Source: Ianthella basta | Taxonomy: Eukaryota; Porifera; Demospongiae; Verongiida; Ianthellidae | Assembly (NCBI GenBank): GCA_964019415.1 | Contig: OZ025875.1 | Span: 2,779,501 to 2,843,500 of the forward strand | Reading direction: 5' to 3' | Length of the DNA: 64,000 bases | Part shown: piece by piece, positions 4,164 through 53,219 of the stretch | How positions within the stretch are numbered: position 1 is the stretch's first letter | Layout of the letters: every line of letters starts with the position of its first letter | Position numbers and translations under genes: made by a program | Notes under the pieces: model-generated | What the model was told of the DNA's origin: nothing | The model's database searches: none | What the model saw: only the letters and a program-made list of their open reading frames with translations

Positions 4164-4322
4164 ATGGGTCCCCTACTTCTCGTTAACATAATTGCAGGTG
4201 AGAAAACAACGCTTTATTACCTTCACTATCCAATAATCAATTTCACTGGCTTCGAATTCATGACAACAGATTTCACCCTTTCCCTTCCACAGGACTTCTC
4301 AGCTGTTTTCTAGTGGCAGTAG
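4164..4322 (+). CDS. Gene A exons 1-2: signal peptide
   Basis: Exon 1 (4164-4197) encodes MGPLLLVNIIA plus one base. The intron runs gtgag...cag. Exon 2 (4293-4322) continues GLLSCFLVAV plus one base, then gtaagc. Joined to the FN3 exon at 8335 this gives a 20-odd residue hydrophobic leader ending ...VAVA before TSE, a good signal-peptidase site. The ATG is chosen because the same two-exon leader recurs at genes B and C. Both exons are too short to be found by an ORF scan. Confidence 0.85.
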
Positions 4323-7300
4323 GTAAGCTTGAGGCACGCTGGCCACTTTACGTATCATAGAGTAGCTAACTTACCAAATTTGGGACACCCTCCTGGTTCT
4401 CAGCGACTACTCGGGCTGCCGACCTCAAACAAGACCGAATTGTAACTCGCAACGAGCCTACAATTGGCATACGTTAGCGGGACGGACTCTTGAGTCAAGC
4501 ACCTTACAGCCCATTTACACTAGTGGAACAGTTCCGTGACGGGTTAAGAGAACCGTTCTATGGATCAGTTCTCAACGATTCGGCCCCCGTTGACACTAAT
4601 TACATCGAAACAGGTTCGAATAATGCAAATGAAGTGTGGAAAAGGACTATAGCAGTCTCCAACAGACGGTTTCCATTGTGTAGGCTCCAGATTTCTGAAC
4701 GAAAGGCGCAGTTATCGGTAATATTATTGCCGCCTGAGCGGCCCTCTCCCACACACTTCGATCGAAAGAAGCACCTTTGCGTCGCTCCAGACACCAGCCA
4801 TTGCTTTTACCTGCTTAGAGCACCACACAGGTAGCTGCTAAATAATCGAACTACTGATTCAGAAGCTTCTCTGTGCTCTCCAACTACCCAGTTACGCGCG
4901 AGACAAGTGGCGTTTACGAACGGTAACTGTATCACTTGCCAACGGAACGGTTCTGGACCGGTTGAATTGGACCAGTTACCCAAGGCGACGCGTTCCACAC
5001 GGAACGGTTCGCTTTAGAACCGTTCCACGCCTGTTTACATTACAGTAAGAACAGTTCTAAAGCCGTTCCACCGCGTAGTGTAAACGGGCTGCGACTCTCA
5101 CAGCAGTTAGAGCAATGCTTTCTCTAAGAAAGTTTCAACACAGACCACTAGATACCCGCTGAATTCGACACACCAATGAGCCGAGTGCCTTTAGGCAATA
5201 AGGCTATTAAACTTTGGTTAAACCTCATTTAACCGAAGGTTAAACAAGGTTAATATCCAGAACAACAAGCCCTCAAGCTCTTGCGCTCCCCCGGCTGTGG
5301 TGCTGCCAAGTTAGCGTAATCCCCGTGCGCTCAAGCAATAACGTTTTTGAATCCGATAGACCGTCACGGTCTATCGGATTCAAACTCACGGTCCTTAGCG
5401 ACGGTTCATTCGCTTGGAAACAGCTACTGAAGCAACTCCCACCAACCTACTACTCACTCCCTTGCATTTGTCAGTCTAGATAGCCATCACATACACGCCA
5501 AAACGGGTTGCAGCATGTGGTTTAATACCACATTTTCAAAGCACATTTGTATGGGAAATCCAAGTTATTTGGAGAGTAGGCTCTACATAACTATCCTTTC
5601 ATCATGGTTGCTTGGCAACTACATTTGCAGTTAATTTAAATCCTTCAGTTGCTTGGTAACCATGTCTGAATTTGAATAGGCTTGGCGGCTAGGTGACCAT
5701 GCTACGTCAGGCTTTGAATGGTCCCATATATGGAACTGTAACACAATATCATTAGATGGGGTTGTTGAGTGATACTCACAACCCACAGAACAATTATTGC
5801 TGCATAACCTGGCCTTCTGCCAACTCATTGTAAAATTATACACATGGGTTAAAGGTATCCCTTCCTATAGAGCTTGGCTGGGAGATGCAGCAAAGGTACA
5901 GTTGTAGTTAGCTGCATACATGTATGCATTGGCTGTTACCATATGCTCTCTATATGGTTGGAGTGTAGGACATTAATTTTGACATAATCTAATTCAGCGA
6001 ATTTTGTGAGTGCAAAATCTAGTCTTGCGCCAGACCCAAATACCCAACTGAGTGAAGTCATACCGCGACCAGCAATATTCTTTGTTCATCGATCCCCTTG
6101 GCTATGGCTGAGGTCAGAATCGCGTAAACAATAGCTAACTCGAAGCACTCTTCTATATAACTATGCTTGGTCTATTGGCTATTAACTGCATGCCAATATG
6201 TTTCACTGTACTATGTTTCTTTTCTAAGGCAGTGCGCTTGTGAGCCATGTATGTATTAATAATATAATTCAGGTGATTACTTACTGTAAAAGACATCCTA
6301 TGAATTCCATTATGCACACAGAAACAGTGGGTCGGAATTGTACAACATTTACTTAATGATAGTAGGTCGCAGTGCAGAGTGGTGCATAACGGAGGATAGT
6401 AGCTATTAAGGTTTCTTTATGAGCCTTTTCACAGTGATGCAAAGGCCTACCACTCTGTGGAAGGGATAACAGTACAGTGGAAGGAACACTTACTTCAGTG
6501 CTCCTGGGAGCTCTCCCCTTGGACTTTTGCTGATGCTGCTTTAGATGAGCATGTCTGGAGTAGCTAGCTATCATGATTATGTCACAGAGAGAACACTGAA
6601 TTGGCTTTATAAATTTAGTTTTTGACCCACATTCTTAGCATACCACAAGGGTAAGTTAAGTCATAGATTGCGTTGCTGTATGATCTTGTCTATTGTTGTA
6701 GCAGATGTCCCATTGCATGCAGTCCACTGACACAGTAACTATAAGATATGTACTAATGGATTTCTGTGGCAAGAAGATCTGCCTTTCGTTTGTTGACAGA
6801 GGCACTGGCAAGAAGACTGTCCAGATTATCTTGTACAAAGCTCGATTGTACTGCTGTACCTGGTCTATCAAGCCCTTGCCAATGACTGGAGGTGCTCGCC
6901 CACGATATCTAGCTTACCAACACATGTATCCCATCTGCAGTAAACAGGATTCATATCCTTTGAGCAAGCCAAAGCTCTGTCTCTAAATGTTAGGCTGATG
7001 TCATACAGCCATTGGCGAATCTGATTGGCCAAGACAGGATCTTGTCCTTGACATGCAAGTCGGCGCATGCAATAATACCAAGCCCTTCCGCAAAGGGGGT
7101 CTGGTGTACAGACTAGTGCAAAATCGCTAAAAATGTACCCAAAACATTTCTTTGTACAGGAAATTTTCTAAATAATTAATATAACTATATAATAAAGTTT
7201 AGAACAATTAATTGGATAATAAATAAATTCAAAACATAGCATTAGGCTTTATATCCACAAATTTGCTAAATTGCATTCCTGCAATTAATTACTAATCGCG

Positions 7301-10300: not shown

Positions 10301-13300
10301 GCTTTTCACAAGAATGAGGCATTCAGTCTTTCTTCATGTGTTTATGCAGTTCCCTCTGCTCCGTTGGGTTTACGCATTCCGGATATCACTGCCAATGGGT
10401 TCACTCTTGAGTGGACCCCTCCCAGCACTCCAAATGGAATCATTGAATTTTACCAAGTGGCACTGTTCACATCCAACAACCTAGACCTGCTTACATTGAA
10501 CCCCATCAATGTTAGCAGTACATCATACACCTTCACTGGCCTGGCACCTTTCACTGGGTATTCAGTCCAAGTGTGTGCCTACACCATTGGATGTGGCGAC
10601 ATTGCTACCTTGAATGCTACAACATTGGGAGGTGAGCAAGAATTGTATTCAGCAATAGCTGGGCAGAGTGCCACACAATCTATGTACGTACTTGTACTGA
10701 TAACACATTACATTTTATTTAAGCTTAATTGCAATATTTATTGTATAATACTGTTTGTTCCAGTGCCCCCTAAAGTATCCCCCTCAGATGGAATAAGCAA
10801 CAAGCCAATACACACGGGAGACCTAGTGACCATCTCCTTCACTGTTATGAATGAGCCTGTTCCAAAAGTCACAAGGGAGGGTATCCAGTGGATGTTCATG
10901 GGAAGTGGAGGTGCTGTCAACCTCTCCTGCACTAGTACCCTCAAGTACACCTTCTCTGATGACTGCCTCAACCTCACTGTGAACAACACAGTGGGCAGTG
11001 ATGCTGGCCTGTATCAGATAACAATCACAACTGAAGCTGGAGTAGGTATGAGTGCAGTTGGGATATCAGTCAGTGGAGGTGAGTTGTGTGAGATGGTGTG
11101 TGTGTAATATGTACATATGTACCTATGTGTGCAAATGTATACGTAAGTGTGAAAATGTATACGTACCTATGTATGTGCACTCCACCATAGCACTGGTCAA
11201 TACAAATTGTTACGTGCCATCTTATGCTGCAGTTGTACCTGAGATAATGACTACTCGATCTCGAGCATCCTGTATGCAGCTTCATGCCAGTAGCTGATTC
11301 CTTACAATGGCTATGACTACTGTGAATGTGTTGTAGTGATCATGCAACACTCATACCTCATTCACTACTCCTCTTTACCAAGATGGCTGTCCTGAACTGC
11401 CTGACTCACCCTGTGGTAATGTTGGTCCAGTGACTTGGCCTCAGACTGAAATAGGCCAGGTAGCCTCAGTCCAATGCTGGTGTGGGTTAAATGATACACT
11501 GATCCAGCAATTGAGAGGCACTCGGAGATGTGGTGGGAGGTATGAAACTGGTGCAGTGTGGGAACAACCACAGTGTGAGAGCTGCCAGTTCAGCGAGACG
11601 AGGAGAATGCTTTGTGCACTTGCTGAGGTTGGTTGATTCATTGGACAGGTGGTTATGAGAAAGATTAAAGATATACATTGGCTATGGACATCTCATGTGC
11701 ATGTTACCGGATTCTGATTTGGCCATTTTCTTGGTCTATCCATGCATATGATGCCACTCTCTATAGATTGATAACCCAGCCCAGCTTGCCGCCAGTGAGA
11801 GGTTGTGGTTATGATTTGAATGAGGGAAATATCAGATATCTTATATGCAATTATCAGACAGCACGGTAGTGCTGTCTATGTAGGGATGGCAGTGGTTGTT
11901 TGTATGCTGTAATACAAACGAAAAGTCGCGCTACTCCTGAACAGGACCGAAAACCGGCAAACGAAGCTTCCCATGACGAAGCGGGGACTGAACAGTGCAC
12001 ACAACTAACCTTACTTCACAGCGAAGGTGCGCCTACACGCAGATAGCGCCCTCGACATTTCCCACGTTTCGTCTTCTTCTTCTTCTTCTTCTTTGACAGC
12101 CGTAGCGTACGAACCAGAGGGACCAGGAGAATACTTCACCCACCATATTGCACCATTTTTGGCTGGCTGCATTCCTTTGTAGGTTAGAAGGCGGCGCGAG
12201 TTAGTGCGGAAGACGGCGCTTGCCACGACTCTTGCCGTGTTGCTTGGCCAAGCGGGACGGACGCCATTTTCAAATTACGTAATTAAACCGGATGAAACCG
12301 GAGTGACTGGTGCCATTTATTAGCAGCTGCAGCAGTTAGCTTGCGCGCCGTTTGAAGGACTTTCGCGCTCGTGCGTGCATTTCCCAGCCACGGTTGACTT
12401 CCGGTCGCCGTTCCTCGCTGGGTTAACGCGGAACCTAGGTGCTAGCCCACACCTTGAGTTCTAGGATTACAGAAATGAGGTATAATGCCTTCACTAATGC
12501 CCTATGGTTGAGATTAAGTGACTGTGTGTTGCTTAAGCTTAGCTGCCCACTATCAAAAGTACAGAAACTAGAAATAATAAAAATTTTCTACAAAAATTGT
12601 AAGGATGTAGGGATGGCATAAAAAGGACAGAAACAAGTAAAGGCTGTTACACAGTGGAGCATTAACCATCGTCCCTACATTCAAGGATGTAGGACTATAA
12701 GGTGCAACATTCTTGCATGTAGGGATTATGGTTAATGCTCCACTGTGTAACAGCCTTTACTTGTTTCTGTCCTTTTTATGCCATCCCTACATCCTTACAA
12801 TTTTTGTAGAAAATTTTTATTATTTCTATGTTACTGAGTATACTATTGCATACATTATTCTGCCACTTTTTAGATTGATAACCCAGCCCAGCTTGCCACT
12901 GTTCTGGTGAATATAACTGGTTCTGGTAGTGATGAGATTGAGAGTGAAGATGTCTCCCTTATTGTGGGGCTGCTGGAAACTGTCACACAATCCACAGAAG
13001 ACCTACAACAGGAGGATGTGAGTGGCTAAATCCTCTGATGGCTAGTCAATGTCATTCTTCACTATTGTTGCTGTTGGTTGTATTCTGTATGTTGCAGGTT
13101 CAGATGGATGTCCTCTTGATTGTGAGCAATGTACAGCAAGTGCCTCCTGACCAGCTGGCAGCCAGTCAGGAAGAGACAGATTCATCAAACAGGTTTGTGC
13201 ATGCTCTTGCAAGGGTAAATACCTTGACCAGCTGACAGTGAGGGTAACTGCTTGTTTATTGTCATTTTGGTGCACTTACAGAATTTTAAGGATTGTGGAT

Positions 13301-16300: not shown

Positions 16301-17367
16301 TTCAAACATTATCTTTCCTTTGTACGTACATGAAAGTATTTCTCATCATCTTTACCTTTACACTCCTGTACTCCACTCAGGAAACTGAGGAAGGCTATCC
16401 ATGTAAAGCTGTTGCTCAACCTCTGCTTTGCTCTGTTGGGGCTGTATGTCACCTTCATCATCAGCACTGTCTCAACTGGTGTACCTGTGCTCTGTGGAGT
16501 GGTCTCTGCTCTCATGCACTACTTCTTCCTGGCTGTGTTCTTCTGGATGGCAGCAGAAGCCATCCAGTTACACAGGAAGTTGGTGACTGTGTTCAAACCA
16601 AACATCACAAGCTATGTCAAGATTGCCATGGCAATATGCTGGGGTAGGTTGGTGCATGTGGAGAGGGAAAGTAACGCAATAACTTGCATTTTCTTTGTAC
16701 TTTATTGCCTTCATGTGCAATCCTACCTCCTACAGTGGTTCCAGCTTTCATTGTGGTGTTCTCCTTGGCTCCATACTACCACAACTACATTCATTCAAGA
16801 TTGTAAGGAGCTTGACAGAATACTGCACTGTAATGCCTGTGTTCAGTGTACTTAAAGTTGGTGTTTTCTCTTTCTACAAACTGCAGCTGCCGTGTGTATG
16901 GCTACTCCTTCTATATTGGTCTGCTTGTACCATTTGGTGTCATCTACATTATGAACTGGGTCATATTCATCCTCATCTTTGCCAATCTGGTGTGTAAGTC
17001 CAATGTTAGGGAGGAGACAAGCAAGAATGGGAACCTTCGCAAACTGAAAGAGAACTTTATGATTGCCCTGGGACTGTCTCTTCTCTTTGGAATGGGCTGG
17101 GCCATTGGTCTGCTAGCCACCAGTGATCTTCCTGATGCAGTGCGCTACCCTGCTGAGTGGGTCTTCACCCTGACTACTGCCTTCCTGGGTGTGTACCTGT
17201 TTGTCCTGCATGTTCTAAAATCTCAAGAAGCACGTAGACTTTGGAAGAGGTGGCTTCTCTGCCAGCATAAGCGGGCTGCTTATGGCATGTCAACCAGTAA
17301 TACAAGCAAGTCTCGCTTGACTTCCACTCTCATATCCTGGACAAGGACTTTTAGACGTAGCCACTGA
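4164..17367 (+). CDS. Gene A: adhesion GPCR with short ectodomain and truncated tail
   Basis: My 17-exon model: 4164-4197, 4293-4322, 8335-8637, 8743-8829, 9934-10170, 10350-10631, 10764-11078, 11383-11627, 12874-13017, 13098-13192, 13282-13747, 13834-13891, 14023-14126, 14336-14463, 16381-16643, 16736-16802, 16887-17367. It is 3339 nt, about 1112 residues, with no internal stop and all phases compatible. Order: signal peptide, a degenerate FN3, an FN3 split by an intron, an FN3, an Ig-like domain, HRM-like, GAIN with GPS (cleavage motif HLT), and 7TM. This is the architecture of an adhesion (family B2) receptor: a surface protein that self-cleaves at the GPS, with a tethered agonist just after it. 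Relative to gene B it lacks about six FN3, six Ig, the EGF and the furin-site segment, and its tail ends early by frameshift. It could still be functional; ligand and G-protein coupling cannot be inferred. Confidence 0.85.
4508..5090. mobile_element. Short inverted-repeat DNA element in gene A intron 2
   Basis: The left end agcccatttacacta is the inverted complement, with one mismatch, of the right end tagtgtaaacgggct at 5076-5090. Internally the motif gaaccgttc/gaacagttc recurs many times in both orientations, as in a sub-terminal repeat cluster. There is no transposase. If the ends are extended by one base (cagccc...gggctg) they resemble hAT-type termini, but I found no matching 8-bp target duplication, so the superfamily is unresolved. 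Confidence 0.75.
5346..5384. repeat. Perfect 39-bp palindrome (19-bp arms, 1-nt centre)
   Basis: The left arm tttgaatccgatagaccgt is followed by a single c and its exact inverted complement. It lies in gene A intron 2, just right of the inverted-repeat element. No flanking feature explains it. Confidence 0.95.
5385..7310. other. Gene A intron 2, no recognised feature
   Basis: I see no exon of the receptor and no domain in the short frames of either strand. A tract around 6870-7080 has an open minus-strand frame of about 66 codons without recognisable motifs. Confidence 0.5.
7311..7640 (-). mobile_element. 3' end fragment of an R2/R4-like LINE
   Basis: The minus-strand frame (7516-7310) reads EETTEVFGPCTKALLKKLG, then TTRKG. 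This parallels the C-terminus of the intact LINE at 36322-39312 ([19 protein letters not shown], then ATTGE). An overlapping frame upstream is shifted. This is a short, old, 5'-truncated copy of a related element inside gene A intron 2. Confidence 0.6.
8335..10170 (+). CDS. Gene A exons 3-5: degenerate FN3 and split FN3
   Basis: 8335-8637 aligns with the first FN3 of gene B (shared VLNDSIT and PGTQY, FS.RA, PFSDELTL.TADG). It has lost the domain's early Trp (TFILQNRS where B has TLTWHSPE) and gained several Cys, so the fold may be compromised. 8743-8829 is the N-terminal third of the next FN3 ([15 protein letters not shown]). 9934-10170 supplies the rest ([25 protein letters not shown]). Exon 9934 resembles gene B exon 28067 more than 26613, so gene A joins an e4-type first part to an e8-type second part. 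Donor use at 10171 follows an in-frame extension of two codons relative to gene B. Confidence 0.8.
10350..11078 (+). CDS. Gene A exons 6-7: FN3 and Ig-like domain
   Basis: 10350-10631 encodes an FN3 ([34 protein letters not shown]). 10764-11078 encodes an Ig-like module ([29 protein letters not shown]). The Ig-like module has the DxGxY signature, but the residue where the second disulphide Cys normally sits is not Cys. Both are close to gene B exons 40664-40945 and 41114-41428, and both are phase 1-1. Potential N-glycosylation sites are frequent. Confidence 0.85.
11231..11300 (+). pseudogene. Remnant of a lost Ig exon (deletion scar) in gene A
   Basis: ctgcag|TTGTACCTGAGATAATGACT matches the acceptor and start of the gene B Ig exon at 41577 (ctgcag|TTCCACCTGAGCTAGTGACC). 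After about 50 nt the similarity stops. From about 11304 the sequence (gctatgactactgtgaatgt) matches the intron before gene B's HRM exon at about 44091. Everything between those points in gene B (four Ig domains, the EGF and the furin-site exons, about 2.4 kb) is absent. The remnant frame hits TGA, so it is presumably skipped. Confidence 0.75.
11383..11627 (+). CDS. Gene A exon 8: HRM-like domain
   Basis: The encoded segment has the spacing of a hormone-receptor motif: C, then VTWPQT..G, C.C, TRRCGG, ETGAVWEQPQC. The HRM is common just N-terminal of GAIN in aGPCRs. The exon starts phase 1 and ends phase 0 before a gttggt donor. Gene B carries a nearly identical exon at 44163-44407. Confidence 0.75.
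11767..11796 (+). repeat. Duplicated start of the GAIN exon (decoy acceptor)
   Basis: tag|attgataacccagccc appears here and again at the true exon start (12874). The first copy diverges after 27-28 nt and soon reads into a stop. Between the two copies lies about 1.1 kb holding two interspersed repeats. Gene B has the exon start once. Confidence 0.85.
11855..12323. mobile_element. Interspersed repeat with internal (TTC)n, copy 1
   Basis: The same sequence recurs at 32140-32660 and, inverted and partial, at about 23640-23832. It starts with a hairpin (cagacagca..tgctgtct), has a TTC microsatellite in the middle (12072-12093 here; about 104 bp in copy 2) and ends near gtaattaaa. The minus strand has an open frame across the TTC run (poly-Glu or poly-Lys depending on copy), not convincingly coding. 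The repeat class is unknown. Confidence 0.75.
12571..12826. mobile_element. Foldback MITE with TA target duplication
   Basis: The two halves are near-perfect inverted complements. The left half begins gaaataataaaaattttcta and runs to about 12695; the right half ends with its complement at 12826. TA flanks both ends (12569-12570 and 12827-12828), as expected for a Tc1/mariner-type mobilised element. Related copies are at 22244-22517 and about 39766-40029. Confidence 0.9.
12874..14126 (+). CDS. Gene A exons 9-13: GAIN domain and GPS
   Basis: Exons 12874-13017, 13098-13192, 13282-13747, 13834-13891 and 14023-14126 encode the GAIN domain, beginning [18 protein letters not shown]. The last two make the GPS: CRFWNF, a Trp, a Cys, then [18 protein letters not shown] is the canonical autoproteolytic tripeptide (cleavage between Leu and Thr), and all GPS Cys and Trp are present. 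Cleavage would leave THFAILL as the start of the tethered agonist. This part is closely matched by gene B. Confidence 0.9.
14336..17367 (+). CDS. Gene A exons 14-17: 7TM domain
   Basis: 14336-14463 encodes the linker and TM1 ([20 protein letters not shown]). 16381-16643 encodes TM2, TM3 and the start of TM4 ([36 protein letters not shown]). 16736-16802 finishes TM4. 16887-17367 gives the extracellular-loop Cys, TM5, TM6 ([20 protein letters not shown]) and TM7 ([19 protein letters not shown]). These are family B2 features. The frame ends at TGA 17365-17367, about 46 residues after TM7. In gene B the equivalent exon continues about 130 residues further. Confidence 0.9.
14554..15097. mobile_element. 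TIR element (ccgtatatgtccg ends) with TA target duplication
   Basis: The left end ccgtatatgtccgaatagag is the inverted complement, one mismatch aside, of the right end ending cggacatatacgg at 15097. TA flanks both sides. It lies in the gene A intron after TM1. A partial copy of the left end is at about 52435-52505. No transposase is seen. Confidence 0.85.
15996..16317. mobile_element. Foldback element with about 85-bp arms in gene A intron
   Basis: The arm from 15996 (gaaagataac, tttgaaactacacatggta) is inverted at the right end (taccatgtgtagtttcaaac, then tatctttc) to 16317. The arms also share tggcagtgaac, ggaccagca and acctcca. The element is absent from the equivalent gene B intron, so it inserted into gene A after duplication, or was lost from B. 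Confidence 0.85.
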
Positions 17368-19090: not shown

Positions 19091-19101
19091 ATTTGCCCAG
19101 T

Positions 19102-19104
<3 letters not shown>

Positions 19105-19157
<53 letters not shown>
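19105..19157. repeat. (AC)n microsatellite
   Basis: A pure AC run followed by the tandem phrase acttattacttaatcatta and sequence shared with the flank of the 3605-3795 AC array. Confidence 0.95.
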
Positions 19158-19158
<1 letters not shown>

Positions 19159-19944
19159 CTTATTACTTAATCATTAAACTTATTACTTAATCATTAATAA
19201 CCTGTGGACAGGTTGCAACAACAGAGGAATCACTTCTAAGGTGACATAAGCCAGTCTTGATATTTGAAAACAAGACACACATGACATGACACGTCAAGTG
19301 ACATCAAAGTGAACCATACACATGCACACACACAACTTATTACTTAATCATTAATAACCTGTGGCAGGTTACAATAACGGAGGAATCACTTCTAAGGTGA
19401 TATAAGCCAAAGTAAACCATACACGTGTCGTAGTGCTATAACATGTATAGCAATGGCCTAGGGTAATCGAAGATACCAGTGGTACCTGTACAGACTAGTC
19501 AAATGTGCCTAACTAGATAACTCGTTCCTAGAACATCAAATACTGAAGGCTGTCAGGACTAAACTGAACAAGTACACAGCAAAGAGCATGCAGGTGTTGG
19601 AAGCTTGTCTCACCAATGTTCACCTAGCTCGATCCAACTTGTGCCAACCACAGATGACGTACAAGTGTGGCCTGAGGCCTTTAGTTGCTTTGCAAGGTCA
19701 CTGCATGTACCCATTTCTCTTCATGCTGGCATCGGCAAAGTTCTTTTCTAAACATACAGTAAGTTCCATGAGGAAGATCAGCTTGTCTGTTCTTTCCAAA
19801 GGGCAATGTTTGAAGTTTCTGTTTGGGGCAAATGTGGGTTGGAAAGTCATAGACTTCTGCATTGAGGTGTCTGGAAATGTGGAATCAAGGGTATGGAGGT
19901 GTGTACTGATGTATGATAGGGCTACCTTGAGCACCTCATCATGA
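19158..19944. other. Gene A-B spacer, partly shared with the region upstream of gene A
   Basis: 19190-19330 matches 3808-3950, and part of it is repeated again at 19330-19420. A 118-codon frame at 19588-19944 has no recognisable motif and no support from a paralogous copy, so I do not call it. Confidence 0.5.
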
Positions 19945-20567
19945 CTTGAGTTGTAGTGTCTGTTTTGGAGGTGCATTCATAGCATTGAAGGCATGCTTTG
20001 AGGTCTGTAGGCCTCTGAATAGGGGGTATGATGATTTCACGAGTCTCTGCCTTTGACAAATTAGAGTTGTGTGGCCGTCTGTCTTGTGCACTGTTTTCAG
20101 GAAAGGACCAAAGCTTTAGACCACAATAGTCAGCTGGTTGGTTGTGTTCAGCATTCAAAGTTCTGGCAAAGTGAAGTGGCCTTACACCTGCAGTTTACTC
20201 TCAAAGCATTCCTAGTTCGCTTTGATTTTCATTGTCTTCAAAGTCTTGTGTTTGAGTTGGTCCACTGACAGATCTAAGTTGTCAACATGCACAGACATCC
20301 AGAACACCACACAACTAAGTCTTGGGAATGGGTGAGCCTGGTTCACTCCCTAGTGGTCACTGATGAGTAGAATGTTGCGATGGACTGCATGTGAGGCCAA
20401 GGCCACCTTTAGCTGGCTCAAGGTGTATACAAGGTAACCTCAGCCACTCTTGAGGATTGAACCAGGTTCAAGAGATCTCTGAATGAAGTTCTTAGGGAGA
20501 TGGTATAACTGCAAATCCTATGTTTCATTTTAGCTCACACACAAGCACACACACAAGCACATGAATG

Positions 20568-20663
<96 letters not shown>

Positions 20664-20900
20664 CACGTACACACACAAGCACATGCACGTACATGAACAT
20701 ATACATTACACTGACATGAACATATACATTACACTGCACCTAGATGTGCACACACCCTGTATGAAAGGGATATAATGTAAAGGAATGTTGTGTACTGTAG
20801 ATTGTGTTCCAACTTCCAGATTGGGTTACATTGCAATAATGTTTAGAGCATTTATAGCATGTTTTAGTGCACTCCTACTGACTCACATGTCACACCCCAG
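19945..20900. repeat. Spacer modules Y and Z with AC array
   Basis: 19945-20530 (module Y: gtctgtaggcctctg, cttgtgcactgtt, aaagttctggcaaagtg) matches 50270-50700. An AC array follows at 20570-20666. 20690-20900 (module Z: acattacactgca, ggaatgttgtgtactgtag, gattgggttaca) matches 50755-50945. The order is X-Y-Z here but Y-Z-X after gene B. Confidence 0.7.
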
Positions 20901-21876
20901 ACATATCCTGAATGTGCAATGAAACCTATCTAAGACAACCACCTGTGCATATGCCAATTGTAACTGACCATTATAGAGAGGTGGCTGCTTTACAGAGGTA
21001 GATTGCAATGCTTTAGTGCTATTTGGGGAGAGGGAGGCTGCCTGTTTTAGAGATGTGGCTGTTTCATACAGTGACCATCTTAGACACATTCCACTGTATT
21101 GTACAACTTACTAGTCAGACCATGCCATATAACACCACATTCATAACATGCAGGTTGCATTTACTGCGTGGGTCTGTGTCAGTGTTTCTGTCAGTGTCTT
21201 CTGTCAGTACATGTACAGTATTGTGTGAGTCATGTAGATGATACTATGTTATGGAATCTCTCTACACTATACGTAGGTCCACACCTGGTTTGAGGTTCAA
21301 GAAGAGGTACTTTCTTACATTATGGACTGTCAGTCTGAAAGTAGAATGTTGGTTTGTTGGTAGTGTGTATTTCTACAACAAAGGGAGGGTCTCTGTTTAT
21401 CCACAGTAACATGATTCATTGCTATAATGCGTGTGTCAATATGCTTTCTACAGCATGCACCTGAATAGAATGTGTGTGGGCTTCATACACTGTCATGCTT
21501 TACCACTTTCAATGGACCAGTTGCGTATAAGCGTTTAGGAATGCAGTGCGTCGTAATTGCTTATGACGTCATCACAGGTGGCAGGTTAATACATTGAAAA
21601 GAGAAGGGAAAAGGTGTTGCACCGGCAGCCTCGAGCGCTTCGTGCCGAATGTTCCCATTTAGATGTCTCGCCTGGATGGTACGCACGAATACGCACGAAT
21701 ACGCACCCGACGGTCGTTGATTGAGGTTGATACGGCCTACAGTCGCAAATTTGAAAGCATGCATGGTTGGACCAACATCAGAAGGCTGGTCGACCCTGCG
21801 GGTTTAGGTTACAATCGGTTTGCTAATCTAAGCATACTCGTATGCACATGCATGCGTCACTGTCACAGACACACAC
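20901..21876. other. Spacer upstream of gene B
   Basis: About 20945-21115 resembles the spacer upstream of gene A. A small tandem repeat of acgcacgaat occurs at about 21681-21705. No gene is recognised. Confidence 0.5.
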
Positions 21877-22053
21877 ACATTTCCGCTTCCACCCCCGCGA
21901 ACGCGTTCCTAGCTCTATAAACTGTCTCCCATCGCGTATTAATCTTATTTTGAACTCCAGTGCGCGCGTTCAGCGCATCCACTGGCAGCTACTGAGCCGT
22001 ACGTTCTTTGTTTGTGAGTAAAGGCGGCGCGTACGCACTCTCTTACGGATGTA
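21877..22053 (+). promoter_or_regulatory. Conserved 5' block upstream of gene B start
   Basis: Closely similar to 4000-4163 and 52922-53082: atttccgcttccacccccgc, actggcagctactgagccgt, gtgagtaaaggc. It ends at the gene B ATG. Probably promoter and 5' UTR; inferred only from position and conservation. Confidence 0.55.
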
Positions 22054-22203
22054 ATGGGCCCCCTACTCCTCATTAACATTGCAGGTGAGAAAACAACGAT
22101 CTATTACCGCATCTATGATTAGCCTCACTGTCCGAATGTCCATTCCACGGGCTTCTCTCCTTCTCCTCCACAGGACTTCTCAGCTGTGTTCAAGTGGCAG
22201 TAG
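22054..22203 (+). CDS. Gene B exons 1-2: signal peptide
   Basis: 22054-22084 ([10 protein letters not shown] plus one base) and 22174-22203 ([10 protein letters not shown] plus one base). Spliced to 25588 they give a leader ending VAVA before NLNLTF. The intron is short (89 bp) with gtgag and ccacag ends. Confidence 0.85.
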
Positions 22204-31200: not shown

Positions 31201-32422
31201 TGCATGTGTGTACATTTATTTTAAGTCTTTACATAAAATGTGTTTGTGTGTACATATGTACGTATGTTGCTTTTGCATATTAAACCTTGTTGTGAAGATT
31301 TATGGTACATTAGTCTAACAATGTTGAATGCGGACCTTGAAAGAGCATAAATGGTAGATGTTATGTAATGTACAGCAGTGCTGGTGGTTATGTATCTGTG
31401 CAAATGGTCTGGGTACGAATCAGCAAGCACACGTTTCAGAGAAGAGAACTGGTACAATCAGCAATATCCACCATTTGAGAATGGTTCCATTGGTGTATAT
31501 GCTCTAACATTTATATATTACAGCTCACCCATTTACTACATACATTATGTTATATTGTCACATGCAAATAATGTGCAAGGATACTATGTAATTATAATAT
31601 TGTACCTGAACTTCTCTCCTAATTTGATGCTAGCCTCATCTTCACCAGTGAATCTCATGGCAATAGACAATATGAGGGAGTCACAAAGACTTACCATAAC
31701 ATGGGCAGAACCAGTGATAACTAATGGAATCGTATCATCTTACGATATACAGTACAGAGGAATCAGCAGTGTAAACGCAGTATCAAGTAACTTCTCCCAG
31801 GTCCAGATGTTGTCAGTTGGTAGCACCCTGGCACTACTGCAGGACTTGGTTCCCTTCTCAGTCTACAACATTTCAGTCAGGGCCTCCACTGGAGCTGGAC
31901 CTGGTCCTTTCAGTGCAGAGATATCTGTTAGAACTTTAGAGGATGGTGAGTGCTCAGTAGTGTACATGTGCAAGTACATAGTTGTGGGTGAGGGAATGTG
32001 CATGGGTCGATGTATGTATGTAAGTATGTAAGTATGTATGTGTGTATGTATGCATGTATGTATGTATGTATGTATGTATGTATGTATGTATGTATGTATG
32101 TATGTATGTATGTATGTATGTATGTATGTATGTATGTATCAGACAGCATGGTAGTGCTGTCTGTGTAGGGATGGCGGTGGTTATTTGTATGCTGTAATAC
32201 AAACAAAAAGTCGCACTACTCCTGAATAAGACCAAAAACTGACAAAGCTTTCCATGAGGAAGCAGGGACTGAACAGTGCACATAGCTAACCTTACTTCCC
32301 AGCAAAGATGCACCTACATGTAGAAAGCGCCTTCGACATTTCCCACATTTCTTCTTCTTCTTCTTCTTCTTCTTCTTCTTCTTCTTCTTCTTCTTCTTCT
32401 TCTTCTTCTTCTTCTTCTTCTT

Positions 32423-32453
<31 letters not shown>

Positions 32454-35400: not shown

Positions 35401-38400
35401 GTAATCACCCTCTTCCAGTTTACTGGAGACCCTGGAGGCCAGTTGCTCCATCTGGTTGTGCTTTTTGGGTGGTCTCACTCGCTGGGGAGGCCGAGTAGCA
35501 GGTGTCTCGGTGGACGGCTCCTGGGTCACCTGCTTGTTGATCAGGGTTGCCAAACTCCAGCGCTTACCCCCTCTGGCAGGTGTTTGCAGACATTTCTTGG
35601 AAAAGGAGAGCAATCCCACCCAAGAGGACACATCGTTTCTAGAGACGACCTGCTTAATCACATTGGCCAGCCTTTGCGCGACAGTCACTCTAGAGAGCCG
35701 AGGTATTCGCTTCACAGTCCTAATCGGCGAGCTAAGGTGTGAAATCAGGGATTCAATTTCAGCTTGTGTAGAGATATCAAGTTGTTGATCACTGGCTACG
35801 AACGGTTTCTGGTGGTGGAACGGTGTCCGGTTGTAGATCAACGGCAGGCTGGTGATCGATAGCGCCATTCACAGCAGATCGTTGACCCACCTCAGGCTTG
35901 TTCATACATCGATTGGGCTGGGATGTGGACGGCCAGCAATCTACACAAAGTCTGCCATTCTTCACGCACAGGCATCTGACACATCGGCCATTCTTCATGC
36001 AGGGGCAGCACCGTGAATTGGACTGAGATTGACAGCGCGGTGCTGCCGCCATTTTGCCACCATTATTATTAATATTATTATTAATATCATTATTATTATT
36101 ATTATTATTATCATTATTATTATTATTATTATTATAATACAGTAGTGATAAAACATAATATGGGAAGGGTCACTTTATTATAATAGTAATAATAAATGAT
36201 AATAATGATAATTATTATTATAAGACAAAGGGACACAGATACGCATTACAATAATTGAACAATCATACTGATAAATTAAATTAAATTAAATCAATCAAAT
36301 CAATTCAATTAAATCAATCAATCAATCAATAGACTGGAGTCCTGGCAGCTCCAAAGTGCTCTGCACAGAGGCAGAGTTCCCCATCTGGATAGCCACAGAT
36401 AGTCGCTGGAGCAGGTAGGCGAAAGACTGAGGCTCCCCTGTGGTTGCCTTCAGCCTGCGGCCTAGGTTTCGGAGGAAACTCAATGAATCTGGACCTATTG
36501 TGCCGCAGGTTTCCACTGCAATAGGCTGGAATACATAGGACCTGTCAAGGTGGGCGTACTTGCTCTGCTTGTTCTTCTCTGCTGCAGCTGCAGCCCCTCC
36601 CGCTTCCCTGGACGACCCCCGAATGCGGGAGTCACAAAAGGAGTCCACGCATGTTGCGTCCCACACGAGGAACTTTCCCTCCGTCCATGGGATGAGGGTA
36701 ACACCATCTGGGCGCTTCCCATCAGCTCTGTGAAGGCCAGATGGTTCAAGTCTGCTGGGGATGTTGGCTGAAGCTAACGAGTGGTAGATGGTGTTATTCA
36801 GCATCTGATGGCAAGGGATTCTGCCTTGGCTCATCCTGCAGCTCAGACCATGAAGGCCGAGCTTGTCGACAGGTCCTCCGCAGAAGCTGCAGGAGTGGGG
36901 TAGGCATATGGAGGCGCCCACTCTGAGACCAATGGCAATACGGATAGCCTCGTTGGGCATGCGAAGACCCAGTGAGGAGATAGGTGGTGCGTTCAACCAT
37001 GCCCCAGACTCGAATGAGCCGGCACCAAGCAGCCGTGATCTTGAGATCTCATTGGTGCAGTGCTCCAGAAGGGTGTCGAATGTGTGCTGGACTACAGGCC
37101 CGTCCCAGGATTTCTGGCGATTTACGGCAGAAGGGACCGGTGTGTCTTCAGGCAGTGCCTGTTTCCATTTAGACAGAGCCAGGTCCCTGTCAATGTATGG
37201 GGTAGACGACAGGTGGTCGGGGAGAAGCTCCTGCATTAGGTCTGAGGCCCCACCAGCAGATGCCAAAAAGGCAGATGGTGCAAGAGTGGAGGCACTTCGA
37301 AACCCAAGGCCACCTGATTTCACAGGGAGGGTTGCCTGGAGCCATGAGTCTCCCTGATCAAAATCAATGTTGGTGATCCTCGAAACAATGGACTCCAGAA
37401 GGTGGTCCCAAGACTCAAGGAGTGGGGACAAAAAGGCTGGTGACGTTCGTAAGATGTGCAAGAGCTTTGGGATGGAAAGGGAGTGTCGCAGGATAGTGAT
37501 GGCATCGTGCATTTGGAGGTGGCAAAGTCGTTCCCCCATCACTTTCAACTGGCGACATTGTTCCTCAATGCAAGCCTGCAGTGCCTCCTTCCCTAGGGGA
37601 GAACCCAACAAGATGGCATGGGAGGCATGAACATACTGCAGACCTGGAAAAGCCGACAGAACAGGGCTGACTGAGGACTCACTGTGAGACAGCACTTCAG
37701 ACTTGTCTACATTTAGGAATAGCCCTAATGCCTTCCCCTGATTCTCAATTTTCAATAGGTCTGATTCGATGTCCTCAAAACTCCCGCCAATTGTGCCGTC
37801 ATCAAGGTAGAACACTGTGAATTCCGATGACAGGCTGGATACCAGGTTGTGAATACCCAGGCAAAACAGCATTGGGCCCAGGGGGTCCCCCTGCTGTATG
37901 CCCTCAGCAGACGACACTTGCACATCGTTCCACAAAAGGATGGAAGGAGAACTGTATGCTGAGTGGACGAAAGGCAGCAGATCTGGGATGTGGTCCTTGA
38001 CAGCTCTCAGCATTTTGTCCCGGCGAAGAGAGTTGAATGCATTCTTAAAATCCACTTTTACCATGGCTTGGTGGGGAGGTAGGTGATTCAAGTAAATTCG
38101 GCTGGCATGGACAGCTGCCTCGATGCCGCCCGCGACTCCAAAACCCAGCTGGCGGGGTGCCAGCATCTGGGGAATGGATTCGAGGGCATGTAGGCTGGCA
38201 CATTTTGAGGCAAGTCTTCTCAGAGTGCAACCTACTGCAATAGGGCGAATACCACCACTTTTCTTAGTTAGGGCAGTCAGATTTGCTCCAAAGAAGAGGG
38301 GGCAGATAGAGGTGGGGGTTCTGCCTTCAAGAATCAGTGTGGTAAGGCCTACTAGAGCTGTTAAGAGGGATGCGCCCCCATCACCTGCTGATGGACTTGT

Positions 38401-41400
38401 AAGGTCTTTGAGATGTTGAGGGAGTAGGCCATCAAAGCCTCCACTCGATCCTTTGGGGAAGGATGAGATTACCTTCATGATGACTTGGGTATCAACGGTG
38501 AAAGCGAGTGGTGATGTGTGTTCCAAGGAAGGGATGTCAGAGTCAGGCGGTGGCAGAGGATGCTTAGCTTTGAGGGCTTGTAGGGTCTCACTACTGGGTT
38601 CTGCAATAGCATCCTCGCTGCAAGCCAGCCGGACAGCCCCTCGGTAATCACCCTCTTCCAGTTTACTGGAGACCCTGGAGGCCAGTTGCTCCATCTGGTT
38701 GTGCTTTTTGGGTGGTCTCACTCGCTGGGGAGGCCGAGTAGCAGGTGTCTCCGTGGACGGTTCCTGGGTCACTTGCTTGTTGATCAGGGTTGCCAAACTC
38801 CAGCGCTTACCCCCTCTGGCAGGTGTTTGCAGACATTTCTTGGAAAAGGAGAGCAATCCCACCCAAGAGGACACATCGTTTCTAGAGACGACCTGCTTAA
38901 TCACATTGGCCAGCCTTCGCGCGACAGTCACTCTAGAGAGCCGAGGTATTCGCTTCACAGTCCTAATCGGCGAGCTAAGGTGTGAAATCAGGGATTCAGT
39001 TTCAGCTTGTGTAGAGATATCAAGTTGTTGATCACTGGCTAATTGATGAACGGTTTCTGGTGGTGGAACGGTGTCCGGTTGTAGATCAACGGCAGGCTGG
39101 TGATCGATAGCGCCATTCACAGCAGATCGTTGACCCACCTCAGGCTTGTTCATACATCGATTGGGCTGGGATGTGGACGGCCAGCAATCTACACAAAGTC
39201 TGCCATTCTTCACGCACAGGCATCTGACACATCGTCCATTCTTCATGCAGGGGCAGCACCGTGAATTGGACTGAGATTGACAGCGCGGTGCTGCCGCCAT
39301 TTTTGCCGCCATTATTATTATTATTATTATGATTGAGTTATTATTATCATTCTAATAATAACTCGTCTTTAAAGTGTTTGACGTTCCGTTTGCTAGAGAC
39401 ATTGAGTCTGATTTTTTGATGACTTGTTATGATAGCTGTTCAAAGCATCCGACAATCGTGGACTCCTTCCCATTGCTCTGCCAACAACTGGAGCTCTTTG
39501 CATTGCTCTATGCCTCAGTCAAAGCAATTGGAAAATAGTTAATAGCTTGCATGTTATTTGAAGGACATCCATGGTCATGCATTTCCCTAGCATTTCCAAT
39601 ACTGCCAGTTGACGTCTGGTTGGTAGCTACAGTGCTAGCCTAAACCATGAGCCTCAGTTAGGGATACAGTAATAAGTCCAATAGCAGCATCAACGTCCTA
39701 TATAATTATGATTGTGGGTTAGTGTGTAGCTAGCTGACTGCACACTATAATAGTACAGAAACTAAAAATTATAATAATTTTCTGCAAAAATAGTAATGAT
39801 GTAGGAATGGCATAAAAAGGACAGAAACAAGTAAAGGCTGTTACACAGTGAAGCATTAACCATCATCCCTACATTCAAGGATGTAGGATCTCTATGCGGT
39901 GCAACATTCTTGCATGTAGGGACCATGGTTAATGCTCCACTGCGTATGTAACAGCCTTTACTTTGTTTCTGTCCTTTTTATGCCATCCCTACATCCTTAC
40001 TATTTTTATAGAAAATGTTTATTATTTCTAATGTATGTATGTATGTATGTATGTATGTACTTATGTACGTATGCATATCAATCAATCGATCAATCATTAT
40101 TAAAGTGCACCATGCCCATTGGCACTAGGTCACAGATTGGCCCCATGCAGTACTTACACATAAGAGGCAAAATGAATACTCATGAACCTGCAGTAGTGTT
40201 ACCCGAACCTTGCATGCCACATACATACAATGATAGATAGCAGTTCATAGTTGTGGCATGCAGCAGACAGCAGGGACGCAGTGGGATCCTGGGTACTGCC
40301 CTTGTCACTGTGTCATCACATCCAGGCCTCCAATAGTCCACGTTGGGATTTCCAAGCTTCGCACCTCATCAACTAATGTTCTACATCTTCCATTTCACCA
40401 CTGTCACATTCCTTACACACTCTCTCCTGTCTGGTCACCCCCCTCCATCTTCCATCTGTATAATATATATATGTATGCATGTATGTATGCACGTACGTAC
40501 GTATGTATGTATGCATGTATGTATGCACGTACGTACGTATGTATGTATGCATGTATGTTCATTTTCCGTATATGTATCTTGTATACTGTATGGCATAAGA
40601 TACCAGTTGCACATGCGCAGTTTCTGATCGGTCTTGTTGTTTTATATTCTACCCACTGTTTAGTTCCTTCTGCTCCATTGGAATTGCTGGTGGAAGATGT
40701 TAGTTCCGGAGGGTTCACTTTGGAGTGGAACCCTCCCAGCACTCCAAATGGAATAATTGACTTCTACCTGCTGGAGCTATTTGCAGACAATAACCTAGAC
40801 CTGCCTGCATTGAACCCCATCAATGTTAGCAGTACATCATACACCTTCACTGGCCTGGCACCTTTCACTGGGTATTCAGTCCAAGTGTGTGCCTACACCA
40901 TTGGATGTAGCGACAGTGCTTCCCTGAATGTTACAACATTGGGAGGTGAGATATGTGAGATATGTAGGGCAACATAGCTCTAGTTAAGATGAAGAACATT
41001 GCACTGGTCATCTTTCCATGCATGCACTGGTACAATATCCAGAGTAGGCCAATCTGTCTCATGTGAACATTCTATGGATTCACTCTTAACTCCATATTAT
41101 TTAATTTCTGCAGTACCTCCTGAAGTGGCCCCCTTCAATGGAGTGACCAACAGGCCAATCAGCATGGGAGACCCAGTAACCTTTTCCTTTGTCAGTGTGA
41201 ATAAGCCAGTCCCACCTGTCACAAGGGAGGCTATCCAGTGGGTGTTCATGGGAAGTGGAGGTGCTGTCAACCTTTCCTGCACTAGTACCCTCAAGTACAC
41301 CTTCTCTGATGACTGCCTCAACCTCACTGTGAACAACACAGTGGGCAGTGATGCTGGCCTGTATCAAATAACAATCACAACTGAAGTTGGAGTAGGGATG

Positions 41401-41469
41401 AGTGCAGTTGGAATATCAGTCAGTGGAGGTGAGTGGAGAAAACAAGGCTTGATGTTTGCTTATGTGCGC

Positions 41470-41507
<38 letters not shown>

Positions 41508-44500
41508 ATGTGTGTGTACTATATTTGCCACAGCTCAATGCCTTTAACACACTTTCATGTGTGATTTGGACTGCAGTTCCACCTGAGCTAGTGACCTCTC
41601 TGATGAATGCCACACGGGCCCAGGGAAGCTCCCAAATGTTTGTGTGTGCTGCAGTGTCTGATCCTCGTCCTCTGTTTGTCTTCCGCTTCAATGGGGAAAG
41701 AATAACACTGGACAGTGCAAAATATGCCTTGGTCACCAACAGCACTCATGGCACTCTGACTGTGTTCAACCTACAAGGCAGTGATGAAGGGACCTACACC
41801 TGTTCTGCTTCCAACAGATATGGAAGTGTGAGCACTGCAGCTGAACTAACAGTTCAAGGTGTGTTTGGGTTGGGATTTGGAGTATATTATGCATTATTTG
41901 TGTGATGTCACGATATGCATTAGCTATGCCTGCAATCCTGACTGCCTTCTGATGTTCTACTTTTTGTTTCTCAGTTCCCCCAACTATTGTCTTCTCCCCT
42001 TCTGCTGTCCGTGATGTTGTGGCAGGAGAAATCTTGGTTGTTTCTTGTCGAGCTAGTGCTGATCCACCACCAATGATTCAGTGGTTCAGAGGAGACCAGA
42101 TGCTTAATAATGGAGACCAATCTTCAGGAAACGTATCAATATCACAAAATATTGAAAGCATGACTGCCAGCAGCCAGCTCACTATTACTGGGATCACATC
42201 TGAAGGGTCAGGAGTGTACTCTTGTGTAGCCATCAACAGTCTGGGGAATGATTCTAGGTCATTTCAAGTCAATACAATTGGTGAGTCAGCTATACTAAAA
42301 TTTCTGTCATTGCCAGCTTGGTAAACAGACTGTCAACTGTTTCCTGCCCTAGCATTGGCTCGGATGCTACATTACACTTCTCTGTATGCAGTTAGACCAA
42401 ACATTTCCAGTATTAATCAAACTGTTGATGGCGTAGAAAAACCAGGTCTGTTCCATCAAGGGATGTTGACATTGGATGAATTCACTCCCCAACTTGAGCT
42501 GACATGTGAAGCTTACGGTGATCCTCCACCTGACGTTGTCTGGCTGAATAACGGCATTGCTCTGCAGAACATTCCAGTTAGAAGGACCATCACAGTTGAA
42601 GATGGAGGATCACTTGGTGAACTGGGTACCATCACCCGGTCCACTCTCAGCCTCTCAGAGGTGCAGCTATCTGATGCAGGAGAGTACACTTGTAGAGCAA
42701 TCAGTGGCAATGTCTCCCCCATCCCTGGTACCACTGCATGGACATTCACATTCAAAGTTAAGGGTGAGTTTTGTCCATATAACGTGAGATGTTTATTTAT
42801 GCTCAGTTTTAAATGTTGCTGGTCTGTGGCATGAAAATGTATAATCCATTTATGATGTTAGAATAACATTTGTTGGTGAAGACTTGATAAGTTGATGAAC
42901 AAAATTCATTATATAAATTGCTGTATACGTTCGTACTTGGCTTTCCTTCCCCATCATAAACATTTTTGTTGCATCCTGGTAACTGCTTATTGACAATAAT
43001 CAGTGATTTTGCCTTTGCCATTTCAAGAACTGAATGAATGTGACCCAAACCCCTGTCTGAACAATGGCACATGTGTGGATGGAGTGCGAAACTACACATG
43101 CAATTGTGCTTCATTCACTGAAGGCAACATATTGATATTCTTCACTGGACGGAACTGCAGTACAAGTGAGAAGGAAAATGTTACAATGCTGTGACATGTT
43201 GTATATCTTATGTTTTAACCTCTCCATCCACAGAGGTTGACAATCGAGTAGCCCCCTCTCTTACCAACACTCCCATAAGTATGACAGTGGATCTCAATGA
43301 CAAGGTGGTGCTGAGCTGCTCTGCTACTGGCAATCCCACCCCAAATATCCAGTGGTACAAGGATGGCTTTGAAATTAAGGGCCCCCAGGCCATTGGAAGT
43401 GAATTTGTGATCACAGAAACAACCCCCAAAGAACGAGGATTCTATCAATGTGTAGCCTTCAGCAGCTTTGGTCCACCAGCAAGATCTGATGAAGTATTAA
43501 TATTAATCAATGGTAGGAGTGTTATAATGCTCACCTGAGACTGAAACTGACTGACAGTGTGTGTCAATGTTTCGTTGTGCAGGCATTGTTCAGTTTCGCA
43601 TTCAAATTGACTTTGGGAGTAGGAGGAAACGCCAAGTCACTTCCAATGCTGACATTATAGAAACTGTGAGTGACTTAACATACTGGTACATACTAGGTAA
43701 CCATTGGATGAAAGTGTGTGCTTTTGTTTCTCCTGTTATTAGCTGCGGCTACAAATAGTGAACCAACCTCTAGCAGTGGAAGGAGACTATACAGCCACTG
43801 TGTACTCAGTGGAATCTGCTGGGGACAACACCACTGACATTGTGATCACCGTGGCAACAAACAGCTCTGATACTCCTACAAATCTCACGGAGCAGCTGAC
43901 ACAGCCTCTTGAACAAACACTGGAAGAAGTTCCAGACATCAACGAGCAACTCTCATTTACTGTAGACACCACTGGGCGATTTGGTATGTAGTTCTCTTGC
44001 TAACTGATGTGAGAGCCTGTGTGCATGGCACTGCAGTACAGTGAATGCACAACATTCTGTATGTAATCTCATGCTGTTTCCTTACATTAGCTATGACTAC
44101 TGTGAATGTGTTGTGGTAATCATGCAGTACTCATACCTCATTCACTCCTCCCCTTTACCAAGATGGCTGTCCTGAACTGCCTGACTCACCCTGTGGTAAT
44201 GTTGGTCCAGTGACTTGGCCTCAGACTGAGATAGGCCAGGTAGCCTCAGTCCAATGCCAGTGTGGGTTAGATGACCCACTGATCCAGCAACTGACAGGCA
44301 CTCGGAGGTGTGGTGGGAGGTATGAAACTGGTGCAGTGTGGGAGGAGCCACAGTGTGAGAGCTGCCAGTTCAGCAAGACGAGGAGAATGCTTTGTGCATT
44401 AGCTGAGGTTGGTTGATTCAGTGATGTGACAATTTGTGGTTATCAGAAAGATCAGGGAGATATACATAGGCTATGGACATCTCTTGTGCATGTTACTGAA

Positions 44501-51420: not shown

Positions 51421-51477
51421 TGTGTACTGCATGGTTGGAGTGAGCATCACACTGCAAATGGACATCCTCACTATCAA

Positions 51478-52921: not shown

Positions 52922-53082
52922 ACATTTCCGCTCCCCCCCCCCCGCAAGCGCGTTCCTCTACAAATTGCCTTCCATCGTGCGCAACATTATTGTGAACTCA
53001 AGTGCGTGGAGCGCATCCACTGGCAACTACTGAGCCGTACGGTCTTTGCTGATGAGTAAAGGCGCTCTCTCCTGGATGTAGG
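52922..53082 (+). promoter_or_regulatory. Conserved 5' block upstream of gene C start
   Basis: Third copy of the block before genes A and B (cacatttccgctcccccccc, actggcaactactgagccgt). It supports a third receptor unit. Confidence 0.55.
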
Positions 53083-53219
53083 ATGGGTCTCTTGCTCCTC
53101 AATTACATTGCAGGTGAGCAAACAACGCTTTATTACCCTCACTGTCCGAATGTCCATTCCACGGCTTCACTTCTTCTCCTCCACAGGACTTCTTTGCAGC
53201 TTTCAAGTGGCAGTAGGGG
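53083..53219 (+). CDS. Gene C exons 1-2: aGPCR signal peptide (partial gene)
   Basis: 53083-53113 encodes MGLLLLNYIA plus one base. 53187-53219 encodes GLLCSFQVAVG plus one base, 3 nt longer than in A and B but frame-preserving. The donor is gtaagc. No FN3 exon follows in the remaining 10.8 kb, against 4.0 kb in gene A and 3.4 kb in gene B. Either the intron is swollen by transposons and the body lies to the right of the window, or the unit is an orphan. Confidence 0.7.

Follow-up and report, generated by a model that had tools for sequence, protein, structure and literature searches.

Genes A, B and C of the window

The DNA analysed here, termed the window, is a 64,000-nt stretch of the sponge Ianthella basta (C8:2779501-2843500, contig OZ025875.1; genome of 209 Mb in 96 contigs), and it holds genes A and B and the 5' end of gene C, which are, judged by their sequence, adhesion G protein-coupled receptor (aGPCR, class B2) genes. 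The window covers only a small part of a tandem aGPCR array on C8 that spans ~1.72 Mb and has 68 HRM loci. To call modules, custom profile models were derived from the window and refined by iteration over 328 kb (the window plus 264 kb); seven-digit positions are those of the contig, all others those of the window. As read from the sequence, a full gene of the B type would encode a signal peptide, an FN3/Ig/EGF ectodomain, a furin-type site, an HRM-like and a GAIN region, a GPS with a segment like a tethered agonist, a seven-transmembrane (7TM) region and a tail; the part from HRM onward is called the chassis below. A, B and C are separate genes, as the sequence-only reading had it, each with its own signal peptide, and A and B with their own GPS and 7TM exons. 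Signal peptides of all three were judged by eye, without a predictor.

Gene B starts at the ATG at 22054, and its signal-peptide exons (22054-22084 and 22174-22203, +) lie in a 5' block (19315..26855, +) that is common to another array member, unit V2, at 95.7-99.3% and includes the first FN3. Eight FN3 and two Ig modules in the order f1 f2 f1 f2 f3 f4 g1 g2 f5 f6 occupy 25588..31945 (+), and f7, Ig1-Ig4, the EGF and Ig5 occupy 40664..43512 (+); here f and g denote types obtained by clustering, by identity, 148 FN3 and Ig modules from 11 units. A linker with an RRKR furin-type site and, after it, an unnamed juxta-HRM exon (about 43743-43983) precede the chassis (43555..43983, +). The HRM-like exon (44163-44407), the GAIN exons (44558-44701, 44782-44876, 45066-45522 and 45609-45666), the GPS (45878-45981), TM1 (46170-46297), TM2 (from 48329) and TM3 with the tail, to the stop at 49709, are all on the + strand as well. 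The profile models thereby returned the nine FN3, seven Ig and one EGF that had been counted in B, with HRM-like, GAIN, GPS and 7TM exons after them. Frames are open and splice sites present through all checked exons of B, and phase 1-1 splice sites fit most of the tested ectodomain exons of A and B. The intron between f6 and f7 contains two tandem retroelement copies (32866..39351, -) that are 98.2% alike; the second, the only one in which RVT_1 was tested, has a 1009-codon open frame with RVT_1.

Gene A starts at the ATG at 4164, in a promoter-like block with a TATA-like motif (4042..4322, +) that includes signal-peptide exons at 4164-4197 and 4293-4322. Its profile-model content, three FN3 and one Ig followed by HRM-like, GAIN, GPS and 7TM exons, is likewise that claimed earlier. 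The ectodomain exons, all on the + strand, comprise a degenerate FN3 (8370-8639) without a Pfam match, the first half-exon of a split FN3 (about 8718-8842), the FN3 types f2 and f7 (exons about 9934-10170 and 10350-10631, called by profile models, Pfam and module clustering) and a single Ig of type g3 (10788..11078, exon start uncertain). The HRM-like exon (11383-11627), GAIN exons (12874-13017, 13098-13192 and 13282-13747), GPS exon (about 14019-14135), TM1 exon (about 14336-14463) and 7TM exons 2-3 with a truncated cytoplasmic tail (16376..17367) follow, also on the + strand. When compared with V1 and V2, A shows a deletion junction at 11256..11263 (+): A matches V1 up to 11256 (V1 2743420, just inside Ig2) and resumes at 11263 (V1 2745766). 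Relative to V1/V2, one deletion of ~2.34 kb removed six modules, i.e., nearly all of Ig2, plus Ig3, Ig4, the EGF, Ig5 and the juxta-HRM exon. Both the donor of Ig1 and the acceptor of HRM are of phase 1, so the frame would be kept if Ig1 were spliced to HRM. V2 and A also have a common f2-f7 junction (92.7% over 1220 bp). A 127-nt hairpin in an intron of A (95% complementary, 6-nt loop; 12569-12828) has an 89% complementary relative in an intron of B (39763-39891), and both resemble miniature inverted-repeat transposable elements.

Gene C enters the window with a promoter-like block (52957..53219, +), its ATG at 53083 and signal-peptide exons at 53083-53113 and 53187-53219, bearing out the claim that it repeats the 5' end of the other genes; the 5' block with its two-exon signal peptide is 76-79% identical among A, B and C. 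The same block precedes U2, and in V2 286 bp of it are identical to that of B. The module exons of C lie beyond the window (C8:2848453-2865720), and its chassis follows the ectodomain there. Between the signal-peptide exons of C and its first FN3 lies an element like a long interspersed nuclear element (56838-61507, -), in which an open frame of 1184 codons encodes endonuclease and reverse transcriptase and another, of 385 codons, includes a PHD finger; inverted repeats at 55866-56399 and 62074-62199 (94% and 89% complementary) flank it.

At the other end, positions 1-424 had been taken for the 3' end of a fourth unit. They are instead the end of a truncated, frame-broken copy (C8:2775879-2779925) whose remnant in the window (1..425, +) stops inside 7TM exon 2. 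This copy contains HRM, GAIN with frame breaks, GPS, TM1 and part of TM2; its large GAIN exon (GAIN3) is in four pieces upstream, window positions 190-425 are 92.5% identical to the TM2 exon region of B, and no TM3 match occurs downstream of its TM2 piece.

The exons shared by A and B had been described as nearly identical, which comes to 92-95% nucleotide identity for HRM, GAIN1, GPS and 7TM, but to 85% for the large GAIN exon and 86% for GAIN2. The spliced B chassis, whose TM2/TM3 junction was read by eye, matched 7tm_2 (PF00002) at 1.1e-21 (77.7 bits, cut-off 20.6) and GPS (PF01825) at 2.1e-11. In the 11-residue core of the GPS, a cleavage triad with a hydrophobic segment after it can be read, which we take to resemble the site of self-cleavage and the tethered agonist seen in other aGPCRs. 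The best matches among solved structures were ADGRG6, ADGRG2 and ADGRL3, and ADGRF1 structures also matched. GAIN gave no Pfam match up to 0.05, and a phmmer match to ADGRL3 (8jmt) begins at query residue 232, upstream of the GPS. A long modular ectodomain is present together with the by-eye signal peptide. The FN3, Ig and EGF labels were confirmed by Pfam on a sample of exons, save for the first FN3 of A and the Ig1-type module, which scores under the I-set threshold in A (1.6e-4) and in B alike. Chance is excluded because of these E-values and the co-linear order of the domains. HRM (PF02793) is matched weakly by Pfam in 10 of 11 members, with 1.3e-5 at best; B scores 18.0 bits where the cut-off is 26.2. 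The predicted fold of the exon has a predicted local distance difference test (pLDDT) score of 34.

The juxta-HRM exon, a conserved exon of 72-76 residues that precedes HRM, had been overlooked by the sequence-only reading, as had the RRKR site and the loss of one base in the cytoplasmic tail of A. The exon has no Pfam match above cut-off and no SEA match up to 0.05, and its fold prediction is poor (pLDDT 58). The RRKR site stands before it in 9 of 10 units, and none was found in C. Cutting by furin at this site may detach the FN3/Ig part; in A, where the position of the RRKR linker falls within the deletion, the single Ig would remain joined to the chassis.

The array on C8

Array-wide searches were performed exon by exon with a single B query each, so divergent copies may have been missed; 150 of 395 candidates were scored in the EGF search, and 150 of 427 in both the 7TM-family and the IgU2 search. 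Genome-wide, the B exon queries matched 107 HRM, 76 juxta-HRM, 100 TM3, at least 145 EGF and 76 Ig1 exons. Most of the close matches fall within the 1.76-3.49 Mb stretch of C8, and C21, C2, C6 and C14 carry smaller groups. Loci were counted from C8 matches only, taking as intact an exon match without a stop or fragment flag and allowing the juxta-HRM exon ≤1.2 kb upstream of HRM, the EGF ≤3.5 kb upstream and TM3 ≤12 kb downstream. By this count 62 of the 68 loci have an intact HRM exon, and 50 of those 62 also an intact TM3 exon. Among the matches listed, EGF and juxta-HRM exon are both kept in 42 of these 50 units and both missing from the other eight, and at nine loci the juxta-HRM exon is truncated and the EGF missing, with TM3 carrying a stop or fragment at six and absent at three. 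An array of this sort was not reported in the literature found by a search limited to open-licence papers.

Units in C8:2994081-3155266 occur in pairs ~75-79 kb apart with equal scores, which suggests either a recent segmental duplication or a false duplication of the assembly. Elsewhere in the genome, a second, different cluster of ~30 aGPCR genes lies at C12:4781447-5038004, with 7TM matches within one exon and long open frames, and Ig-domain matches are densely clustered at C19:5765418-6156086, possibly another Ig receptor cluster. Nuclear-receptor zinc fingers were seen at six places, five of them in one 48-kb group (C14:7044990-7093263). In mitochondrial COX1, TGA is read as Trp, and AGA occurs at six positions fitting Arg. 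Taken together, the zinc-finger count and this mitochondrial code would, among animals, suggest a sponge. An Rfam scan gave no matches, and a tRNA scan no genes.

Module order and block exchange

Eleven units were compared in the 328 kb: a local group (U8, V1, V2, A, B and C) and a distant group (U1, U2, U4, U6 and U7); V1 is cut by the edge of the compared DNA and its start lies outside it. The members share a chassis and carry mosaic, length-variable ectodomains. Across the 11 units, module types that are shared keep the order (f1 f2)n f3 f4 g1 g2 f5 f6, f7 g3 g4 g5 g6 EGF g7, juxta-HRM, HRM, GAIN-GPS-7TM. The order has exceptions: in V2 a broken additional piece of f7 g3 lies upstream, and U1, with 27 FN3 matches and internal repeats up to 98% alike, interleaves f1, f2 and f3 with other types. 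In C the block f4 g1 g2 f5 f6 is tandem-duplicated (2.2 kb of DNA, 93.1% alike), and U4, U6 and U7 have no or one FN3 within the DNA compared. FN3 types present in no other compared unit number ten in U1, two in U2, one in U8 and one in A (its degenerate FN3). The sequence-only reading had proposed module gain and loss on a fixed signalling part. A, B and C do differ in ectodomain length by whole modules with phase-1 introns on either side, but the shared types keep one order that is shortened or internally duplicated; gain of module types is seen only at the far N-terminus (the FN3 of U1, U2 and U8), while the EGF/juxta-HRM core is mostly kept.

From its identities to other members, B is a recombination mosaic of the array. 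Ig1-Ig3 of B are 93-96% identical to U1/U2, whereas Ig5 is only 79-80% identical to these and 91-94% to the local units U8, V1, V2 and C; Ig4, at 91-94% to U1, U2, U8 and V2, does not separate the placement of B. With introns included, B 19315-26855 matches V2 at 96-99%, and 26756-31191 finds its best match among the compared units in U2/U1, one megabase away (84-90%). Farther along, 31531-32139 is 95% identical to V1 and C, 40457-42748 is 85-91% identical to the U1/U2/U4/U6/U7 group, and 48110-49731 is 92.7% identical to C. Trees gave matching results: B grouped with U1, U2, U4 and U6 for Ig1-3 (100/100; opposite placement rejected with p 0.02 in the approximately unbiased, AU, test), and with the local units for Ig5 plus the juxta-HRM exon (100/100; p-AU 0.002) and for TM2+TM3 (100/99; p-AU 0.0003). 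Among the matches listed, the EGF protein of B is 91-93% alike to three - strand copies at 3.08-3.21 Mb and 91% to one C21 copy, against 78-83% for five + strand C8 units at 1.76-1.87 Mb and 60-73% for the other 29 of those 34 units. In other units, e.g., C and U8, the nearest partner also switches from module to module, many of the differences being small. Such recombination between array members lay beyond what the sequence-only reading could see.

We also compared the ratio of nonsynonymous to synonymous substitution rates (dN/dS) between ectodomain and chassis, a check that had been proposed for this cluster, and its outcome was divided. The ratio was higher for the ectodomain in the local group (0.58 for FN3+Ig against 0.33 for HRM+GAIN+7TM) but not overall in the distant group (0.33 against 0.34); faster ectodomain evolution is therefore clear for one subgroup only. 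FN3 alone in the distant group gave 0.79 (interval 0.54-1.23, from 5 module pairs), with intervals that are too narrow because codons were resampled within pairs and pairs taken as independent. Module pairs with more than 40% residue difference were dropped from the pooled estimates, and the truncated tail of A was excluded. In a pairwise comparison from which pairs with pN >0.35 or with fewer than 8 synonymous sites were dropped, dS was 0 for one FN3 pair. Positive selection on the ectodomain as a whole is unsupported.

The best explanation overall, and in our judgement a probable one, is a tandem array whose members change by block exchange on a shared chassis. Unequal exchange and gene-conversion-like transfer between members would shorten, duplicate or replace ectodomain blocks, outcomes that are seen in A, B and C, and such exchange would be frame-safe because the introns are in phase 1. 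The ectodomain might bind a cell-surface or matrix ligand, and binding or force could expose the tethered agonist at the GPS. If the members feed similar G-protein signalling, the array would offer many binding parts and few outputs.

Several observations weigh against this explanation. The GAIN-exon tree leaves the two placements of B unseparated, and the clades for the AU tests were picked after the identity table had been seen, the Ig1-3 test alone giving p 0.02. The signal-peptide block was found in five units (A, B, C, V2 and U2) and not in U1, U4, U6, U7 or U8. Every pooled dN/dS estimate is below 1, either HRM or the last 7TM exon is not intact at 18 of the 68 HRM loci, and the tail of A, in which one base found in V1, B and C is missing (possibly a sequencing error), is shortened from ~167 to 34 aa. 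The last three also suit neutral birth and death, in which copies come and go by unequal crossing-over, and variation of the ectodomain is a side effect without a selected recognition role, as do the mostly fixed module order with changes in length and the equal ratios of ectodomain and chassis in the distant group. However, HRM and the last 7TM exon are intact at 50 of the 68 loci, the ectodomain ratio exceeds that of the chassis in the local group, and the checked exons of B keep open frames and splice sites; we regard neutral turnover as possible but rather doubtful.

Block exchange could also be carried further. The array may be a germline receptor-making machine, in which exchange is ongoing between members up to a megabase apart, new ectodomain segments are continually fitted to a conserved 7TM signalling part and individuals carry different mosaic sets for recognition of self/non-self or microbes, but we consider this unlikely. 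Still less likely, and speculative, is a sponge allorecognition or self-marker locus comparable in use to those of Hydractinia and Botryllus. A large clustered family, changing gene content and Ig/FN3 ectodomains would fit such a locus, and invertebrate allorecognition genes are described, in the portions used here of one paper, as multigene families in variable haplotypes (PMC12065747); against it, no pooled dN/dS exceeds 1, and a term search of the main text of the Amphimedon graft-response paper found neither 'GPCR' nor 'G protein-coupled' (PMC5450542).

That A and B are collapsed or mis-joined alleles is very improbable. Pairs of units with equal scores elsewhere in the array (e.g., 3065526 and 3140514) are compatible with false duplication, but the coding exons of A and B are several percent apart, their introns differ, A has the 2.3-kb deletion, their closest partners differ along their lengths, and the listed HRM, TM3, EGF and juxta-HRM matches are all on contigs C1-C23. 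On exon identities, differing partners and the deletion, A and B were rejected as alleles. A single compound locus, with several ectodomain cassettes that splice onto one common set of chassis exons in the manner of clustered protocadherins, would account for repeated ectodomains mostly on the same strand, but it was rejected as scarcely credible since chassis, signal peptide and stop codon are present separately in A and in B, and the chassis of C follows its own ectodomain beyond the window.

Comparison with known systems

The usual picture of adhesion GPCRs is one of few and conserved genes. In vertebrate ADGRF receptors, HRM and GAIN are accompanied by SEA or Ig modules, and a second cleavage site is present; structures of ADGRF1 do match the chassis described here, but those of ADGRG6, ADGRG2 and ADGRL3 match better, and a SEA fold of the juxta-HRM exon, as in ADGRF, would be putative. 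Expansion of aGPCRs in a demosponge was already known; in Amphimedon queenslandica 40 aGPCRs were kept of 72 7tm_2 genes, at least eight with HRM, according to the parts of that paper covered here (PMC4302439). The kinds of domain are alike, as fn3, Ig, EGF, HRM and GPS are listed in a figure legend of the same paper, but in I. basta the HRM-like aGPCRs form one giant array; the word 'tandem' is absent from the main text of the Amphimedon paper, and no mosaicism is described in the parts covered (PMC4302439). For sponge immunity, the portions consulted of two papers report an aGPCR that responds to microbial patterns in one species (PMC6208332) and 57 GPS-containing GPCRs in Halichondria, none among the genes responding to LPS (PMC8242945). 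The Botryllus fuhc and Hydractinia ARC loci are likewise clustered, changing families of surface receptors, as far as the sections used here describe them, and 'GPCR' is absent from the main text of that paper (PMC12065747). Polymorphism and function have been studied at those loci, whereas the array is known from one genome. Should it prove polymorphic, the array could be considered a candidate locus for recognition in a sponge.

To our knowledge, the precedent for mosaic exchange among aGPCRs is the small ADGRE group, which consists of few genes with EGF ectodomains. As cited in PMC2720389, the original study is that of Kwakkenbos in 2006, on the 'EGF-TM7 receptor chimera EMR2'. The human EGF-TM7 genes EMR2, CD97 and EMR3 are alike to the present array in being aGPCRs with mosaic exchange. 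The array differs in its 68 HRM loci within 1.7 Mb, in its FN3/Ig ectodomains (B has one EGF beside 9 FN3 and 7 Ig, not the tandem EGF of ADGRE) and in the several exchange blocks within one gene, B. In the parts of the EMR2 study covered, EMR2 is reported to undergo concerted evolution with CD97 and EMR3 through gene conversion, and mosaic evolution is proposed to keep some of its regions alike while others diverge (PMC2720389). With its 68 loci and single module grammar, its deletions and duplications that can be traced and a gene assembled from distant relatives, the array amounts to a natural swap experiment on the ectodomain parts that are exchangeable on a single signalling chassis. It is real and unusual and bears clear signs of block exchange; as gene-family evolution it is of a known kind.

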